This document shows, piece after piece, positions 4,822 through 33,608 of a stretch of DNA of 33,608 nucleotides (position 1 is the first letter of the stretch; every line of letters begins with the position of its first letter). The position numbers and the translations under genes are program-made. The notes under the pieces were generated by a model that ran no database searches, was not told the origin of the DNA, and was given only the letters and a program-made list of their open reading frames with translations. The DNA comes from a virus. The stretch spans positions 1 to 33,608 of IMG/VR virus record IMGVR_UViG_3300025864_000010; one strand, 5' to 3'.

Positions 4822-5367
4822 ATGAATAGATATTATTACATATATCAGGTTATAAACTTACTTACTGATAAACAATATGTTGGAAGTAGAATGTATGATC
4901 GAGAAATAAAAGGCCAAGCATACATGGGTTCGAGTAAATTGCTTAAAGTTGATATCAGTTTATTTGGGATTGAAAACTTTGATAAAGTTAAACTTGAAGA
5001 AAATATACTCTTTGTAAATAGTAAAGAAACTGAAGAACGTGAAAGTTATTATATCCATCATTATAATACATTAAATCCCAATGGATATAATTTACACGAT
5101 CCTAAAGGAGGATGGTCCACTGTAGGTATGAGATATAAACAGAAAAATCCTCACGGTCCTATGTCTAAAGAAAACAAACAGGGCAGAATAGGCAAAAGAA
5201 AACCTTATAAAATAAGATCATCCGAACATTGTAAAAATATTAGTATTGGAAGAATTGGTAAAAAACATCCTAATGTTTGTAAAGAAAAAACTTGTCCATA
5301 TTGTGGTTTGGTTGGAAAGGGATCCAATATGACAAGATATCATTTTGATAAATGTAAATTAAAATAA
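4822..5367 (+). CDS. GIY-YIG homing endonuclease (copy 2) with C-terminal zinc finger
   Basis: A 181-aa protein. The GIY-YIG domain (residues 1-100) begins YYYIYQVIN and has KQYVG, a YMGSSK segment and the LNPNGYNLHDPKGG ending. It is followed by NUMOD3-like basic repeats (MSKENKQGRIGKRK, SSEHCKNISIGRIGKKH) and a C-terminal C-x2-C-x12-H-x3-C zinc finger (CPYC...H...C). It is a close paralogue of copy 3 at 10820. It sits directly after terL with no gap for a promoter. Confidence 0.9.
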   Translation: MNRYYYIYQVINLLTDKQYVGSRMYDREIKGQAYMGSSKLLKVDISLFGIENFDKVKLEENILFVNSKETEERESYYIHHYNTLNPNGYNLHDPKGGWSTVGMRYKQKNPHGPMSKENKQGRIGKRKPYKIRSSEHCKNISIGRIGKKHPNVCKEKTCPYCGLVGKGSNMTRYHFDKCKLK

Positions 5368-10819: not shown

Positions 10820-11434
10820 ATGAATAGATTTTATTACATATACTTAATTACAAACTTGCTTAACAACAAACAGTATGTCGGTTATAAAATGTATGACCAA
10901 GAAAAACGAGGAATAACTTACATGGGGTCGAGCAAATATGTTAATGCAGATATAGAATTATTTGGAATAGAAAACTTCAGTAAAGTTATTCTTAAAGAAA
11001 ACATACTCTTTATTGATAAAGAAGAGACTGCAAAGATAGAAGGTTATTTCGTACATGTATATGATACATTAAATCCTAAAGGGTATAACAGATACGACCC
11101 ATTAAAGGGATGTTTCTCTACTGTAGGAAATCATTATACACGTACTGATGAAATGAAAAAAAAACAAGGTGAATCAATGAAAGGACACGTTCCTTGGAAT
11201 AAAGACGTTCCAGCATCAGAAGAATCAAAAATAAAAAACAGGGAATCACAATTAGGTAAAAAAGATTCTGAAGAAACAAAAAAGAAAAAGAGTGGTAAAA
11301 TTCCATGGAATAAAGATAAAAAAATGAGTGAAGAAACTTGTAAAAAAAATAGTGAATCACATAAAGGTTTGAAGTATCCTAATAGAAAAAAACCTATATC
11401 ATTTAAGAAATTATTAACAATAAATAAAAATTAA
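10820..11434 (+). CDS. GIY-YIG homing endonuclease (copy 3) with NUMOD3 repeats
   Basis: A 204-aa protein started at the ATG 10820; an upstream TTG at 10790 would lie inside the terminator. The GIY-YIG domain (FYYIYLITN ... KQYVG ... YMGSSK ... LNPKGYNRYDP) is closely similar to copy 2 at 4822, which begins MNRYYYIYQ. The C-terminal half carries several NUMOD3 DNA-binding modules (MKGHVPWNKDVPASEES, SEETKKKKSGKIPWNKD, SEETCKKNSESHKG). It sits between the capsid terminator and the next structural gene. It lacks the zinc finger of copy 2. Confidence 0.92.
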   Translation: MNRFYYIYLITNLLNNKQYVGYKMYDQEKRGITYMGSSKYVNADIELFGIENFSKVILKENILFIDKEETAKIEGYFVHVYDTLNPKGYNRYDPLKGCFSTVGNHYTRTDEMKKKQGESMKGHVPWNKDVPASEESKIKNRESQLGKKDSEETKKKKSGKIPWNKDKKMSEETCKKNSESHKGLKYPNRKKPISFKKLLTINKN

Positions 11435-11449
11435 AAAAATATAAATATC

Positions 11450-11986
11450 ATGGCAAATAACTTTTTTACAGCAGTTCCCGAAAATGAAGACAGCGTTGCG
11501 GCAGGAAATAAGTACTTATATATAGGAAGAGACTCAAGCTTAGGTGCTAATGTCACAGACTTTACTATAGATGCTTCAGGTTGGTATGGTACATGGGACA
11601 CTTCAATTCTTGCATCAGCAGAATTTGTTAAAGTAACTCCAAAATCAGAAACACTTAAAGCAGTAGCAACTCTTATTGCAGATGATCCTAACGGAGCAGT
11701 TGCATATGATCATTCAGTTACTTTCCAACTTAACAAGCGAGACATACTCAAACATAACTTGCTTCAATTAGCAGGTAGAGCAAGAGTTAAAATTGTAGTA
11801 GTTGACATGCAAGGTAATGGAAGAGTTTACGGACCAGATAATGGATTAAAACTCCAAGCAGGTAGTTCAGACTCAGGAGATAAATATGGAGCATCACATA
11901 ATGGATATACATTCGAATTCAAAGGTAACAATGTAAACCCAGATATTCTTTTACTTCCTGCACAATTAACATCAATTGGTGGTTAA
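11450..11986 (+). CDS. Probable major tail tube protein
   Basis: A 178-aa beta-rich protein with a start 15 bases after the endonuclease gene and a strong terminator right behind it, which points to a highly expressed structural protein. The sequence ends in an immunoglobulin- or tube-like beta pattern (ASHNGYTFEFKGNNVNPDILLLP). Tail tube is the best guess from size, beta content and position. A head decoration protein is the alternative. Confidence 0.55.
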   Translation: MANNFFTAVPENEDSVAAGNKYLYIGRDSSLGANVTDFTIDASGWYGTWDTSILASAEFVKVTPKSETLKAVATLIADDPNGAVAYDHSVTFQLNKRDILKHNLLQLAGRARVKIVVVDMQGNGRVYGPDNGLKLQAGSSDSGDKYGASHNGYTFEFKGNNVNPDILLLPAQLTSIGG

Positions 11987-12157: not shown

Positions 12158-15100
12158 ATGATCATACTTAATAAAAATCAACTAAATATCTTTCCACTTT
12201 ATATAAAAGATTTAGTAACCTTAGATGGTTCTATTTTTTACATATTCAATTGGGTCGACAGTTATAAACGTCAAGTCTGTTTCTCTATGACAGATGAGTC
12301 CCCTATTTCGACACCATACTCAAAGTTCTCATTTCTTGATGGTTCAACACATTCAATAGATAACGATGGTGAGGTTTTTATATACGAAAGTCCTGTCGAC
12401 GTTTCAATAATCGATGCATCTACACATTTTCTTATAAATGATCTATATCAAATGAAGATTGATTTTCCAAAAACTTCAATTGATATATCATTAAATATGA
12501 CACAAGGAGTTCTTCCTGTAGTCGCAAATGAACAGTTCTTCTTTAATCCTACAATGTATCAACAAGAAGGAGAAGTATATTCAAAAGTGTTAACGCAATT
12601 ATATTTTGATGCTTCATATGCCTCTATTAATGCTGCAATAACAGATTTATATTCCAAAATTGAAACTGGAGATTCTGTTCCTGGTGTTAGTAATGGTTTG
12701 CAAATATTACCAGATGGTTCTATTGGACTTGGTGGTACTTTAACAGAAACTTTTACACAGTTAGATTTTAGCACTAATGAATTACAAATTGGCAGTAATA
12801 CTACTAATATGTACATGTCTGAAGGCGAGATATATAATTATGCACAGAATTCTTCATTTATTGGTCCAATTGATAACCCTACTCAAGAAGTAAAGCATAC
12901 TACACTTATTGATAATTTTAATTATGGCGATTCAGCTGGAATTGATTTTTATACAATTGGACAAATATATGATATATCTGATAATGGATATTGGGGTAGT
13001 ACGTACTTATATAATGTATCAATGATCTTAGAAAATGGTACTATTATAGTTAATGGCACACCTCCAATAGATAGTTGGCATCATAGTTCGTCGACGAACT
13101 TTAAAGGAATTCAATATTTTGATAATTATTCTGCTAATTTCGATGAAAGGTCTTTAATAGATAGAGGTTATTTAGATACTTCACTTGGCTTATATGCAAC
13201 CAATGCTTCAATTAATACTGCTGCATTTGCTAAAAATGCTTCACTTGGACTTTATGTTAAGAAAGCAGGAGACACGATGAGTGGTATTTTAGATGTAAGA
13301 AATCAAGTACTAATTGGAGACGGAGATCGTACTGGTCAATCAACTTTCCCTATGTATATAGCAGCTTCAAATGGTTTAGGATGGAAAGTTGCAGATGCTT
13401 CAGGCCTTGGGAAATTCGAATTATATGTTGGATATGGCGGAACTAATCAAATGCGATTACTTGGTGGTGTAACGTTAGCATCCAATGGACAAGATTTGAC
13501 TTTAGGTACAGATAATAAACCTAACGCTATTACAATTCAAAGAGCATCAGGAAATGTTGGTATCGGGAATACTAATCCCCTATATACTTTAGATGTTTCG
13601 GGTAATGCAAGAATATCAGGAGGTCTTTTAGGACATCTTAAAGAAGCTTCTATAGGAACTGGTTTATTTTGGAATGCTGGAATGCTTGATGTTTCAGTTG
13701 CAAGTGGTGGAGGTGGTGGAGGTGGTGGAGTTACACAAGGTTATGTAGATGGTTCATTAGCAACAAAAGTAGGTAAAGCTGGCGATACAATGTCTGGTAT
13801 GCTAATTATTAACGCATCCCTAAATGTTAATGGCCAAATAAACGGACTACTTGTAAATCAAGGTGCCAATTCTCTTATTGGCAATATAGCAATAGGTGTA
13901 GATGTTTTGGATGCGATTACTACTGGAAATTATAACACTGCTTTTGGATATCAATCCCTTACTGTTAACACCATTGGCTGGTATAACACTGCTATTGGAT
14001 ATAAAACTCTTTATAATAATACTGGAGGTTTTAATCATGTAGCAATTGGATATCAATCTCTTTATAGTAATACTACAGGTTCTGGTAACACTGCTATTGG
14101 AGACTCAACACTTTTATTAAATACTACAGGTTTTTATAATATAGCAATTGGGCAAGAATCCCTTTACCATAATACAGTTGGTGCTCAGAATACAGCAATT
14201 GGTAAAGGTTCTCTTTATAATAATGGTGGAACCTATAGTAATTATGGTCAAGAGAATACTGCTATTGGATATCAATCTCTTTATAATAATACTTCAGGAT
14301 GTTACAATGTTGCTATTGGAAATGTAGCTCTTCGTTCTAATGTTACTGGTTATGGCAATGTAGCTCTTGGGTATAATGCAGGTCGTTATGAAGTAAGTTC
14401 AAATACTTTTTATGTAGACAACCAAAACCGCACAAATACTAATGGAGATAAAACAGGAGCTTTACTTTATGGAACATTTAACGCAATTCCGGCAAATCAA
14501 ACATTAACAATTAACGGCAAAGTTGGAATAGGTGGAATAATTTCTCCTGCATATAATTTAGATGTTAGTGGTAATTTCCATATCACAGGTTCTGCAACAA
14601 TAGATAGTTCCTTATTAGTTGGTTCAATTACAAAAGGTGCTAATGCTTCAATTCAAGCAACTGAAGGTGCTGAAATGGCACCTGCCCTTATAGCTACTAA
14701 CTGGTCAGTAGGAGGAGGATGGGCATCAAGTGGAGGACAATTAATTAAAACCGGAACTGATGGTATAGAGATTACTCCTTTAGGAACTTTTAATGTTATA
14801 GTTGGAAGAATATATAAAGTAGTAATTACAGTTTCAGCAGTAGCAGGAACTTTATATGCATATATTGGAGATGGTGCTATTTATGAACCAATGTCTCCTG
14901 CTGGAACGTTCACTGCTTATGTAACAGCCATATCTACAGCTAATCTTAGAATTGGTTCAACAGGAACAGCAACAATTACAAGTGTATCTGTAAAAGAAAT
15001 GACAGAAGGTACTGGAGTTTTAACAAATTATGGAAAAACTCAGGTAACAGGATTATGGTCAACTGGTGGAGTACCTGTTTTGAATTTTACATCCCAAGGA

Positions 15101-30304: not shown

Positions 30305-30311
30305 TTTACAG

Positions 30312-30323
30312 TGATATATAAAC
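30312..30323 (+). promoter_or_regulatory. Promoter-like motif TGATATATAAAC ahead of structured RNA
   Basis: One-base-shorter variant of the genome motif. Its predicted start would be about 10-15 bases before the first hairpin at 30341, giving an RNA of about 105 nt ending at the terminator 30435. Confidence 0.4.
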
Positions 30324-30329
30324 TATAAT

Positions 30330-30435
30330 AAGAAAACAACAACCCAATGCAAGCGGGTTAAAAGATAAAATTGTTTCATTTTTAAAACCTCTCATGGAAA
30401 CTTACTTGCATTAAGGATTACATGAGAGGTTTTTT
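30330..30435 (+). ncRNA. Probable structured RNA with two kissing hairpins and 3' terminator
   Basis: Hairpin 1: AACCC (30341-30345) pairs with GGGTT (30355-30359), loop AATGCAAGC. Hairpin 2: outer 13-bp stem AAAACCTCTCATG (30384-30396) with CATGAGAGGTTTT (30421-30433), an internal loop (GAAA / GATTA), inner stem CTTA (30401-30404) with TAAG (30412-30415), and a 7-base loop CTTGCAT. The whole 7-base loop is the exact reverse complement of ATGCAAG in loop 1. Hairpin 2 ends in a six-T run and would also act as a terminator. It may be an independent small RNA or an attenuator leader of the gene at 30455. The 5' end is inferred from the promoter-like motif. Confidence 0.72.
30384..30435 (+). terminator. 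Terminator-like hairpin with complementary loop
   Basis: A 13-bp outer stem followed by TTTTTT at 30430-30435, just 19 bases before the next ATG. Transcripts from 30312 would end here unless the kissing interaction or translation changes folding. Confidence 0.78.
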
Positions 30436-30454
30436 ATTAAAATAATTTAAAGTT

Positions 30455-30733
30455 ATGAGAAGAAAGAAATTAGTAGTACCAGAAGAAATCTTAAATGAAT
30501 TCAATAAAGCAAAATATGAATGTTTAAGAGAGAAACTTTCAAAATATTGCAAAGACTCAGCATGTTCAGAACATGATAAAATTCTTGCATTGGAAAGTGT
30601 AATGAAAGAACTTATTGATAAAGACAAAGCTTTGATAAGAGATAATATGTTTGATGATTTATTAAATGGTGTAGACTATAGTAGTTTGGACTATAAAATA
30701 TGTCCGAACGAGCAACCAATTGGTGATAATTAA
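30455..30733 (+). CDS. Small helical protein, 92 aa
   Basis: Basic start (MRRKKLVVPEEILNEFNKAK), predicted all-helical, acidic C-terminus with DDLLNGVDYSSLDY. Two cysteines in CKDSACSEH. No known domain. It lies directly behind the structured RNA and terminator, without a clear promoter of its own, so its expression may depend on readthrough. Confidence 0.7.
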   Translation: MRRKKLVVPEEILNEFNKAKYECLREKLSKYCKDSACSEHDKILALESVMKELIDKDKALIRDNMFDDLLNGVDYSSLDYKICPNEQPIGDN

Positions 30734-30739
30734 GAAATG

Positions 30740-30809
30740 TTAAGTTTTTTTTAAACCAATTACAAGAAAAAGAATGCTTAGTATATCCATTATATTAAAA
30801 AAAACTTAA
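30740..30809. repeat. 70-nt inverted-repeat element, copy 1 (upstream of replication gene)
   Basis: Perfect 15-bp arms TTAAGTTTTTTTTAA (30740-30754) and TTAAAAAAAACTTAA (30795-30809) enclose 40 bases starting ACCAATTACAAGAA and containing TAGTATATCC. The same 70-nt element recurs in the same orientation at 33317-33386, differing at only six internal positions. It lies 25 bases before the 824-aa replication gene. Confidence 0.9.
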
Positions 30810-30834: not shown

Positions 30835-33309
30835 ATGACAGCACCTTTAATAATATGCGGACCCCCAGGATCAAGTAAAACTACAGGATATGTTGAAAGT
30901 CTTGCAAAAGACACAACCGGAAGTGTAGCAGTATTCGAACCAGTTCAAAAGATAGTTATTCAAAAACAATCGGGAATTAAAATTGTAAGTAATGACAAAC
31001 TTATAAATATGAATGTAAGATATATTAATTATGCTCAAGGCTTATCTTCATATTTCTATATAAAATCATTAAGTGAACTTGCAAAAGATGATAAAATAGT
31101 TATAGATGAAGCGCATACTTTGTTTTTTACTGAATTCCGCGATTTTGACGTCAAAACTATCGATGATATGATTACTTTATATGGGGATAAACTTATCTTT
31201 ATTACAGCAACCCCTGAGATATTAGAGTTGTATTTAAAAATGAAAGATCTTAAGTACACAAAAGTTGAGTTCCCACAACGCTTAAAAAGAAAGAAGTTTA
31301 ATGTTCGTATTATTCCTACAACATTCTCAAAGTTTATCACAAAGGATAAGTTAGATAAGTACGACATTACACTTGTAAATAACATTAAAACTCTAAAAAA
31401 ACTACAGAAATTAGTAGGAGAAGATAATAGAGAATATTCTTTTATTTACAGTTATTACAATGAAATCAATAATCTTTACTTTAAAAAAGAAATTGTTAAT
31501 GATAACAAATGGATAGGAACAAGCTCATTGGGGCAGGGCATTGATAAGTTTGTAACAATTAAAAAAGATGTTGGAAGTGTTTTATTTGATGGAAATTGTT
31601 ATCAACAAATTCCTGACTTAGTTAAAGAACGATACAGAGAAGAAGCGAATCATGATTTAACGTATTATCATGCAGTATTTAAATGTATGACTCAGAATAT
31701 CATACAAACTGACAGATTCAGAGTGGATTTAGATGAATTAAACATTGACGTTGTATTTGATTTAGAAATGGAATATTTAGAACCGTTTAAGAAGATAATA
31801 ATTGATGGATTCCGAGGAGTTTATAAAGATTGCGATATCAGCGTTGAGTTAGGTGATGCTTTGTATGCGAACAAATTAGATAATTTTGGTTATGAAGATT
31901 TTGTTAAATGTTTAGAAGAATATGATTATGACCACAAATATAATTCAAAATCTAAAAGAACTCGATTTCTAGAATTGTTAAATGTTCTCTGTAATCCTGT
32001 AAAAGATGATGAAAATGACAAAAGAACTAAAAACATCGGACTCTTCAAGACTACACTAAAATATTTTAATAATATTTACAAAAAGTTTTATAATGATAAA
32101 ATTGAAGAAAGAGATCTGACAATATTTGACAACACACTAGAAAGAAAGAAAAGAAGTATGTTACTTCAAAAAGGAATAGTAGAATTTGTAGATATGTTGA
32201 TTGAAGAAGACTTGAAAACAAAATCGCTCAACTATCTCACCACTAAAGAGGATGTATTTGGAGATAAAAAAGAAGAACCTGAAAAAGAATTATACACAGA
32301 TTTAAGTTACTTTGGTGAATCTTTATTACAGATACTGTTTGCTCATTACGACCTAAAATATAGTTTAATGGGAGAAAATAAAAGAGAAGGAAGTCCTATT
32401 CAATTGCTTCCAAAATACTTACGATACTTATTACTTATCAAAGATGTGGATGTCAGTGGATGCCATGTGGTCGCGATGATTAAAAAGATAATGGGTGATG
32501 ATTATGATATTACATCAGAACTTATAAGTAAAATATACTCTTATGGGTCTATTCCAAAACAAGAAATGTTAGAATATTTAAAATCATTTGGATATCTAAA
32601 AAATAATACATTACAAGAAATAGAGAGCGGATACAAAACAGAAAGAGGTATATGCAAACAAGCAATTCTTTCAGGAATAAACAAATTAGATAAGTACAAA
32701 CAGGATAAGGATTATATATTTGTTAAAAGAATGCTAAATAATGGCATAGAAAATATGGGAGATATTGATCTTAAGTCATATGGTTTGTTAGGATATCATA
32801 ATGGAATAAAATACGAACAAAAATGGTTAGGAGAATATACAAATCACAGGGGAGTCATTTTTAGAGTTGCGGACGGATTAGCTCAAGTGTATGGGAACAC
32901 TTCATTTCTTGAAGATATTAAACAAACAATAATAAAAAAACATAAAATAATGATAGTAGATGAGAATATAGAAAAATACAACATGTTAGGAATAACAAAG
33001 AATTTAGATTATTTCATACAGAAGAATATTAAAGAGTTTAAAGATGTAGAGATTACAGATGATATGGTAGAAGAAAGCTTTTATAATTGTATTGAAGCAC
33101 TAGAACGTTTTAGAGTATACTTGCGTAAAGGGAAGTACAAAAATAAGAATAAAGGGAAAGCAGTCAACACCAAGAAATATATTATTCTACAAGGATTTAC
33201 TATTAAGAAGTCTGGAGCATCTTATGCCACAGGGACGTACGAATGGGATAAAATACCAAAAGACATACCACAATCATACAGACAACGATACTTGTTAAAG
33301 ACCTCATAG
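30835..33309 (+). CDS. Replication protein: SF2 helicase fused to probable family-A-like (TV-Pol-like) polymerase
   Basis: An 824-aa protein. The N-terminal helicase shows Walker A GPPGSSKTT (9-17), DEAH (91-94), TATPE (124-128), a motif V-like TSSLGQGID (229-237) and QTDRFR (291-296). After a charged linker, the C-terminal half has features of a divergent polymerase: motif A-like IKDVDVSGCH (535-544), motif B-like R-x3-K (Arg604, Lys608, in RGICKQAILSG), and motif C-like FRVADGL (676-682) in place of HD. The fusion plan resembles the helicase-TV-Pol proteins of mobile elements and phages. No other polymerase, primase or replicative helicase is seen in this genome, so it probably drives DNA replication. 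The helicase is clear; the polymerase part is a hypothesis. Confidence 0.72.
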   Translation: MTAPLIICGPPGSSKTTGYVESLAKDTTGSVAVFEPVQKIVIQKQSGIKIVSNDKLINMNVRYINYAQGLSSYFYIKSLSELAKDDKIVIDEAHTLFFTEFRDFDVKTIDDMITLYGDKLIFITATPEILELYLKMKDLKYTKVEFPQRLKRKKFNVRIIPTTFSKFITKDKLDKYDITLVNNIKTLKKLQKLVGEDNREYSFIYSYYNEINNLYFKKEIVNDNKWIGTSSLGQGIDKFVTIKKDVGSVLFDGNCYQQIPDLVKERYREEANHDLTYYHAVFKCMTQNIIQTDRFRVDLDELNIDVVFDLEMEYLEPFKKIIIDGFRGVYKDCDISVELGDALYANKLDNFGYEDFVKCLEEYDYDHKYNSKSKRTRFLELLNVLCNPVKDDENDKRTKNIGLFKTTLKYFNNIYKKFYNDKIEERDLTIFDNTLERKKRSMLLQKGIVEFVDMLIEEDLKTKSLNYLTTKEDVFGDKKEEPEKELYTDLSYFGESLLQILFAHYDLKYSLMGENKREGSPIQLLPKYLRYLLLIKDVDVSGCHVVAMIKKIMGDDYDITSELISKIYSYGSIPKQEMLEYLKSFGYLKNNTLQEIESGYKTERGICKQAILSGINKLDKYKQDKDYIFVKRMLNNGIENMGDIDLKSYGLLGYHNGIKYEQKWLGEYTNHRGVIFRVADGLAQVYGNTSFLEDIKQTIIKKHKIMIVDENIEKYNMLGITKNLDYFIQKNIKEFKDVEITDDMVEESFYNCIEALERFRVYLRKGKYKNKNKGKAVNTKKYIILQGFTIKKSGASYATGTYEWDKIPKDIPQSYRQRYLLKTS

Positions 33310-33316
33310 CAGAATA

Positions 33317-33386
33317 TTAAGTTTTTTTTAAACCAATTACAAGAACAAGACTTGCTAGTATATCCAATATATTAAAAAAAACTTAA
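33317..33386. repeat. 70-nt inverted-repeat element, copy 2 (downstream of replication gene)
   Basis: Arms 33317-33331 and 33372-33386 are identical to those of copy 1. Differences from copy 1 fall only in the interior. It begins eight bases after the replication gene stop. Together the two copies bracket the gene exactly. Possible roles: terminators, replication origins, or a mobile or regulatory RNA element. Confidence 0.9.
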
Positions 33387-33442: not shown

Positions 33443-33608
33443 ATGAAGACCAAAACATACATAGATACCCTTTTAATCGATCTTGCGACTACACAGTCTG
33501 AACTGTCATTCAACAAGTTTTATCATGCATCGTATCGCCTGTTATTTAATTCACTCAAAAAGAGATACTCGAGTCTTGATTATGATGTTATAAAGGATAT
33601 CCTATCTC
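33443..33608 (+). CDS. ECF-like sigma factor, 5' end (continues at position 1)
   Basis: ATG at 33443 opens a frame that is still open at the window end. Because 33482 corresponds to base 1, it continues in frame to the TGA at 717. The start codon lies only two bases after a TGAATATATAAT motif (33429-33440). If that motif is a -10 element, the mRNA would be leaderless or begin inside the gene. No other in-frame ATG occurs until codon 60. Confidence 0.75.
   Translation, partial: MKTKTYIDTLLIDLATTQSELSFNKFYHASYRLLFNSLKKRYSSLDYDVIKDILS
33482..33608. repeat. Terminal direct repeat, right copy (circular overlap)
   Basis: Exact copy of bases 1-127. It should be removed when the genome is circularised. 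It lies inside the coding region of the sigma-like gene that begins at 33443. Confidence 0.95.

Follow-up and report, generated by a model that had tools for sequence, protein, structure and literature searches.

The window (the whole stretch of DNA analysed, 33,608 nucleotides) is a 33.6-kb viral record whose ends (1-127 and 33482-33608) overlap by 127 bp. The same virus is represented by contig L004 (IMGVR_UViG_3300002538_000109), which is joined across the window ends; together, the overlap and this junction indicate that the genome is circular or terminally redundant. It encodes a T4-type terminase, an ECF-like sigma factor most similar to a Bacteroidota subfamily and a metallophosphoesterase whose nearest counterparts are those of Flavobacteriia phages, and the affinities of the latter two suggest that the host is probably a member of the Bacteroidota. 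Two internal segments, 4822-5090 and 10820-11088, are about 74% identical, a coding duplication seen through L004 (8605-8873). The locus studied here comprises the following features:

30311..30320, + strand: candidate phage-type promoter motif, TGATATATAA-like, a weak variant of the TGAATATATAA motif
30341..30359, + strand: hairpin 1, 5-bp stem AACCC/GGGTT, 9-nt loop AATGCAAGC
30346..30353, + strand: upstream kissing sequence AATGCAAG, exact complement of 30405-30412
30360..30383, + strand: linker, including AATTGTTTCA at 30369-30378
30384..30435, + strand: intrinsic terminator (outer stem, internal loop, inner stem, apical loop, T6)
30384-30396/30421-30433: outer stem of the terminator, 13 bp
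30401-30404/30412-30415: inner stem of the terminator, CTTA/TAAG, 4 bp
30405-30411: apical loop of the terminator, CTTGCAT
30405..30412, + strand: downstream kissing sequence CTTGCATT, within the apical loop region of the terminator
30430-30435: T-run of the terminator
30436..30454, + strand: A/T-rich stretch of 19 nt from the T-run to the ATG (L007, a relative described below, has a similar TTAAAATAA stretch)
30455..30733, + strand: first gene downstream of the RNA (92 aa; matches no family)
30835..33309, + strand: 824-aa P-loop protein (GPPGSSKT...DEAH)

Sequence and folds place both hairpins exactly where the first-pass annotation had put them, and the loop complementarity that it reported over seven bases extends to 8 nt (30346-30353 with 30405-30412, AATGCAAG/CTTGCATT), with the eighth pair taking one base from the inner stem of the terminator. 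Its description of the second hairpin as a terminator also holds, the 13-bp stem containing 5 G-C pairs and being followed by T6. The region 30320-30445 folds with a z-score of −3.87 (0 shuffles fold equally well). The stretch between T-run and ATG (30436..30454) is too short for a second promoter. Within the downstream open reading frame, CTTGCATTGG (30584-30593) perfectly complements 10 nt of hairpin 1 (30344-30353); it was treated as chance because L007 has no counterpart.

The 824-aa protein matched the Rad17 P-loop weakly (below cut-off) and showed weak similarity to the helicase of phage mymlan6-1 (E 0.03); it is probably the helicase of a replication module. Its gene is flanked by two copies of a 74-bp element (30736-30809 and 33313-33386, 92% identical) whose 17-bp ends are perfectly inverted (TGTTAAGTTTTTTTTAA...); the copies may form a mobile or recombination unit or act as a pair of terminators.

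The first-pass annotation had held that the two complementary loops were not due to chance. Taken singly, the window could be read as an ordinary terminator with a fortuitous loop match: with loosely set criteria, accepting stems of 4 bp and loop matches of 7 nt within 100 nt, shuffled genomes yielded about 6 kissing pairs per strand, so the loop match alone is no proof, and shuffling the upstream part with the terminator held fixed gave a p value of about 0.006 for the window. As such a value may still arise by chance, the question was put to relatives.

Searches of the region and its neighbours with blastn and tblastn against phage records gave no match, and a scan of genome contigs found no relative. 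DNA patterns built on linker and terminator returned true matches only in the twin contig of the window and in L007, a relative identified by terminase search (77% terminase identity). L007 carries the same layout on its other strand with a wholly different loop pair, and CCGCTAC and GTAGCGG occur in it once each, both inside the element. The two viruses share the linker sequence AATTGTTTCA (identical in the alignment), the terminator motif GGAAnCTTA and the stretch before the ATG. Beyond L007, the linker sequence was absent from the other instances, except for its ATTGTTTCA part in contig L037. A contig with the exact hairpin-1 sequence (L005) was unrelated, with no wider similarity, and three further candidates (L150, L052 and L164) were rejected or left aside on account of a weak match of 6 bp, an unrelated neck gene or the lack of a clear leader context.

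When 1.81 Mb of loci were scanned under strict, energy-based criteria, there were 5 matches (0.5 expected in shuffles), namely, the window, L007, Flavobacterium phage 11b, contig L037 and one phage of 44% GC, the last probably due to chance. In L007, 11b and L037, a replication-related gene is the first or second after the leader; the leaders of such genes were therefore inspected in other phages. Further instances were found in cultured Flavobacterium and Cellulophaga phages and in the cultured phage elemoA; they include the Baltic Flavobacterium phages of the Mumin/Lillamyvirus group (accessions taken from PMC7077304), where the element precedes the replication module; no leader element was found for three gammaproteobacterial homologues of the replication gene or in one gut-phage scaffold. 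The loop sequences outside the window were as follows:

L007: TCCGCTAC/GTAGCGGA, upstream of a DnaD-like helicase loader
Flavobacterium phage 11b (strict scan): CGGGCAGG/CCTGCCCG, upstream of a DUF6291 protein
Contig L037 (strict scan): GTGGAAG/CTTCCAC, upstream of a replication-initiation-like protein that has a homologue in FCL-2
Flavobacterium phage FCL-2: CATCCAC/GTGGATG, leader of a replication-type gene
Cellulophaga phages phi13:2 and phi19:3: CTCTCACAA/TTGTGAGAG, leader of a replication-type gene
elemoA: TGAGAGC/GCTCTCA, leader one small open reading frame upstream of the replication gene (location chosen after the gap was seen)
lillamy: upstream kissing sequence GTGAGACG
mymlan: upstream kissing sequence GTGGAACG
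Second mymlan-type leader: GTCGTCG/CGACGAC, upstream of an endonuclease gene

All 10 independent loop pairs (window, L007, 11b, L037, FCL-2, phi13:2/phi19:3, elemoA, lillamy, mymlan and the second mymlan-type leader) are complementary despite their differing sequences, the outcome of the covariation check that the first-pass annotation had proposed. For the five leaders picked by gene position and not by match, shuffling of the upstream part gave a Fisher p of 4e-10; this figure excludes the window, 11b and L037, all three found through the loop match itself, and it includes an intergenic gap picked by eye (elemoA and the Mumin group) and terminator boundaries placed by hand. When upstream and terminator parts were swapped between phages, the match was lost (best swapped pairing, −6.6 kcal/mol; own pairings, −9.1 to −12.5 kcal/mol).

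The most telling individual result is a double compensation between the leaders of lillamy9-3 and mymlan6-1. They differ at 10 of 110 columns; the linker from hairpin 1 to the terminator is identical, and the differences cluster in hairpin 1 and at the top of the terminator. Two pairs of the kissing helix have both partners replaced, an A-U pair becoming G-C and a G-C pair becoming A-U, and no pair is broken. As the comparison comprises two distinct rows, a shuffle control of the pair count is powerless, and the result rests on the two compensated pairs and a slid control. Complementarity is thus kept through compensatory changes, and the loop-loop contact is strongly supported as real on the strength of this covariation.

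The instances share a common order, with a TAnnTTTG promoter, hairpin 1 close behind, linker, terminator, T-run and ATG. Hairpin 1 has a positional counterpart in every other instance, with a stem of 4-9 bp and a loop holding the 7-9-nt kissing sequence, whose complement sits in the apical loop of the terminator. The terminator has an outer stem of 7-13 bp and in most cases also an inner stem of 3-4 bp, set off by an internal loop, and the next ATG follows 9-35 nt past it in every instance. The gene after the leader usually opens the replication module; in the Mumin/Lillamyvirus group and the window, a small open reading frame is followed by a helicase or primase module.

TAnnTTTG lies 98-114 nt upstream of the terminator end in 7 of 9 instances, and this fixed distance implies that the RNA should start at hairpin 1. 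The two exceptions are the window and L007, at whose leaders this host-type promoter was not found. A promoter-like motif at 30312 had been pointed out in the first pass, and as a sigma-70-like promoter it is unconvincing, with only 13 nt between TTTACA and TATAAT. The better candidate is a phage-specific A/T motif (TGAATATATAA-like), of which the window holds 14 copies with ≤1 mismatch (5.1 expected); it precedes other genes of the genome, and the copy at 30311..30320 carries a one-base deletion. The window and L007 leaders may use this motif as an alternative promoter, for which a phage-encoded sigma factor would be a plausible reader. Each of the two viruses encodes a sigma factor of ECF-like type that falls near the Bacteroidota subfamily (window, 139-717; L007, 4931-5875), and the over-represented motif may be its promoter.

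Anchored on TAnnTTTG, a scan of 372 kb gave 10 matches (0.1 expected), with thresholds fixed after most instances were already known. It gave no match in the Bacteroidota phages lotta8-1, P12024L and PD491P1 or in the Larrie fragment, so the element is common but not universal. With recurrence, loop covariation and the promoter-anchored scan all bearing out the earlier "not chance," a fortuitous match is very improbable for the window and refuted for the class as a whole.

We consider the element to be the 5' leader of an early operon, a transcription attenuator that relies on contact between kissing loops, and put the probability of this reading at roughly 60%. The layout is that of an attenuator, with promoter (uncertain in the window and L007), hairpins, terminator and gene, and with no promoter in between. 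Since the 9-35 nt between terminator and ATG leave no room for a promoter, the gene would be expressed by readthrough, which argues for attenuation and suggests that the kiss may control readthrough, in line with the switch for readthrough into 30455 that the first-pass annotation had put forward as one possibility. Transcription would begin a few bases upstream of hairpin 1, which would fold first and expose 7-9 nt of loop sequence. After another 50-70 nt or so, the polymerase would produce the terminator, whose apical-loop complement could pair with the loop of hairpin 1. The kiss would form or fail while the terminator is being made, tuning the outcome between a stop, with release of an RNA of roughly 95-110 nt, and readthrough into the gene 9-35 nt on. 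The purpose would be to adjust how much of the early proteins, mostly those of replication, is made, or when. Counting against an attenuator, the kiss is not in obvious competition with the outer stem of the terminator, and the host-type promoter is missing in the window and L007. A leader peptide was also considered; open frames cross the leader in phi13:2 and L037 but not in the window (MQAG*) or 11b, so such a peptide is not general.

The second mymlan-type leader, placed before an endonuclease gene, shows that the element is not confined to replication genes. This mymlan/stinky leader has the same geometry with orthogonal loops (hairpin GTAG-AGTCGTCG-CTAC; terminator CCACCAA...AAAG-ACGACGAC-CTTT...TTGGTGG) and was found in 7 of the 9 Mumin/Lillamyvirus genomes examined (L217, about 11640-11745; L218, about 12545-12650; also L220-L224). 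The replication leader of these close relatives (L216-L224) occurs as two loop alleles that segregate with two different replication modules: genomes with the first (lillamy) allele have a DUF6291-like and primase module, as far as annotation reaches, and the three genomes with the second (mymlan) allele have a helicase and a VirE-type protein.

The main rival is a trans-acting, self-limiting RNA resembling CI of phage P4. Both loops are present on the short RNA, which might therefore pair with those of other nascent leaders as well; terminated RNA would then build up with phage copy number and cause premature stops before the replication genes, and loop identity would set phage-specific feedback or immunity groups. 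In P4, CI RNA prematurely stops transcription before replication genes (PMC4825925), the same placement as here. The variable loops and fixed linker, the presence of two orthogonal leaders in one genome and the tracking of the replication module by the two Mumin/Lillamyvirus alleles in the nine genomes inspected all fit this proposal, yet neutral covariation of a structural contact would give a similar pattern. Against it, pairing in cis should win over pairing in trans, both loops being on one molecule and 48-69 nt apart; no additional copy of either the RNA or its target turned up, and PMC7077304 describes several of the phages that carry the leader as strictly lytic. We regard trans action as an unlikely but serious alternative. 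A related and equally tentative idea is that of a novel regulatory RNA class whose loop code serves as a phage's private tag, with a leader RNA recognising only the nascent leader of its own phage. If so, expression of early (replication) genes would be tied to the phage's own copy number, related phages sharing a loop pair would regulate or exclude one another, and the architecture would be reused with orthogonal loops, even twice per genome.

The element might instead be a structural end, a compact RNA that resists nucleases or is presented to a protein and acts elsewhere as a small RNA, with the downstream gene expressed through leaky termination. Such a role would suit a compact RNA of two hairpins that has a promoter and a terminator to itself and is poorly conserved outside the stems between lineages; its constant position directly before a start codon and the lack of a common free sequence that could serve as a target- or protein-binding site make this reading quite improbable.

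Loops that stay complementary while their sequence drifts also recall the packaging RNA of phage phi29, in which complementary loops are conserved without sequence conservation and, by pairing, link individual molecules into a ring at the packaging motor. Here, the window terminase is of the large T4-like type, the leader sits before early genes, two leaders with different loops can occur in one genome and no Rfam pRNA match was obtained; with another genomic place, another packaging enzyme and more than one copy possible per genome, a packaging RNA has next to no likelihood.

The element shares with P4 CI/C4 an untranslated leader before replication genes, complementary stretches and intrinsic termination that decides expression. 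In P4, however, the antisense RNA is processed and has two separate targets (seqA and seqC), whereas here the matching partners are the loops of two hairpins in a single short RNA, one of these hairpins being the terminator itself, and the P4 CI/C4 covariance model gave no match at gathering score. Loops also diversify in the plasmid antisense attenuator systems pT181 and pIP501, whose rep attenuators likewise have a replication gene behind a leader terminator and a central loop-loop pairing. In contrast to those plasmids, the pairing partners here lie on the same strand. An antisense promoter of the host type (TAnnTTTG), searched from −40 to +160 nt around the terminator end, was found in 0 of 9 instances. 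Kissing-loop riboswitches such as the purine riboswitch likewise place an intramolecular loop-loop contact upstream of an expression platform; the present element differs in having no conserved ligand core across lineages and in that the apical loop of the terminator itself kisses. The sole weak Rfam match in this comparison was on the other strand and far below threshold. Against a ToxI RNA of a type III toxin-antitoxin system, the element contains no tandem repeat and the downstream gene has no family match.

The first-pass annotation could not match the fold to a named RNA family, and Rfam 15 likewise gave no match in the window at the gathering threshold. With the cut-off relaxed to E 10, no match to the element regions of the window or L007 reached gathering score, and searches of L201, L205, L211, L213, L219 and L221 returned only a tRNA. 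An open-licence literature search found no description of such an element. It most likely works like an attenuator and appears to be an undescribed RNA switch of flavobacterial phages and their relatives. Production of an RNA from the leader, as predicted, would add an RNA control element at the entrance of early (mostly replication) operons in diverse flavobacterial phages, a large and little-studied group. As the loops act as a replaceable matched pair, action in cis or trans, phage specificity and orthogonal regulation can be tested with loop-swap reporters. In phage lotta8-1 (L215), the intergenic region 10880-11090 contains repeats of TGTTCCA/TGGAACA that fold into several long hairpins.
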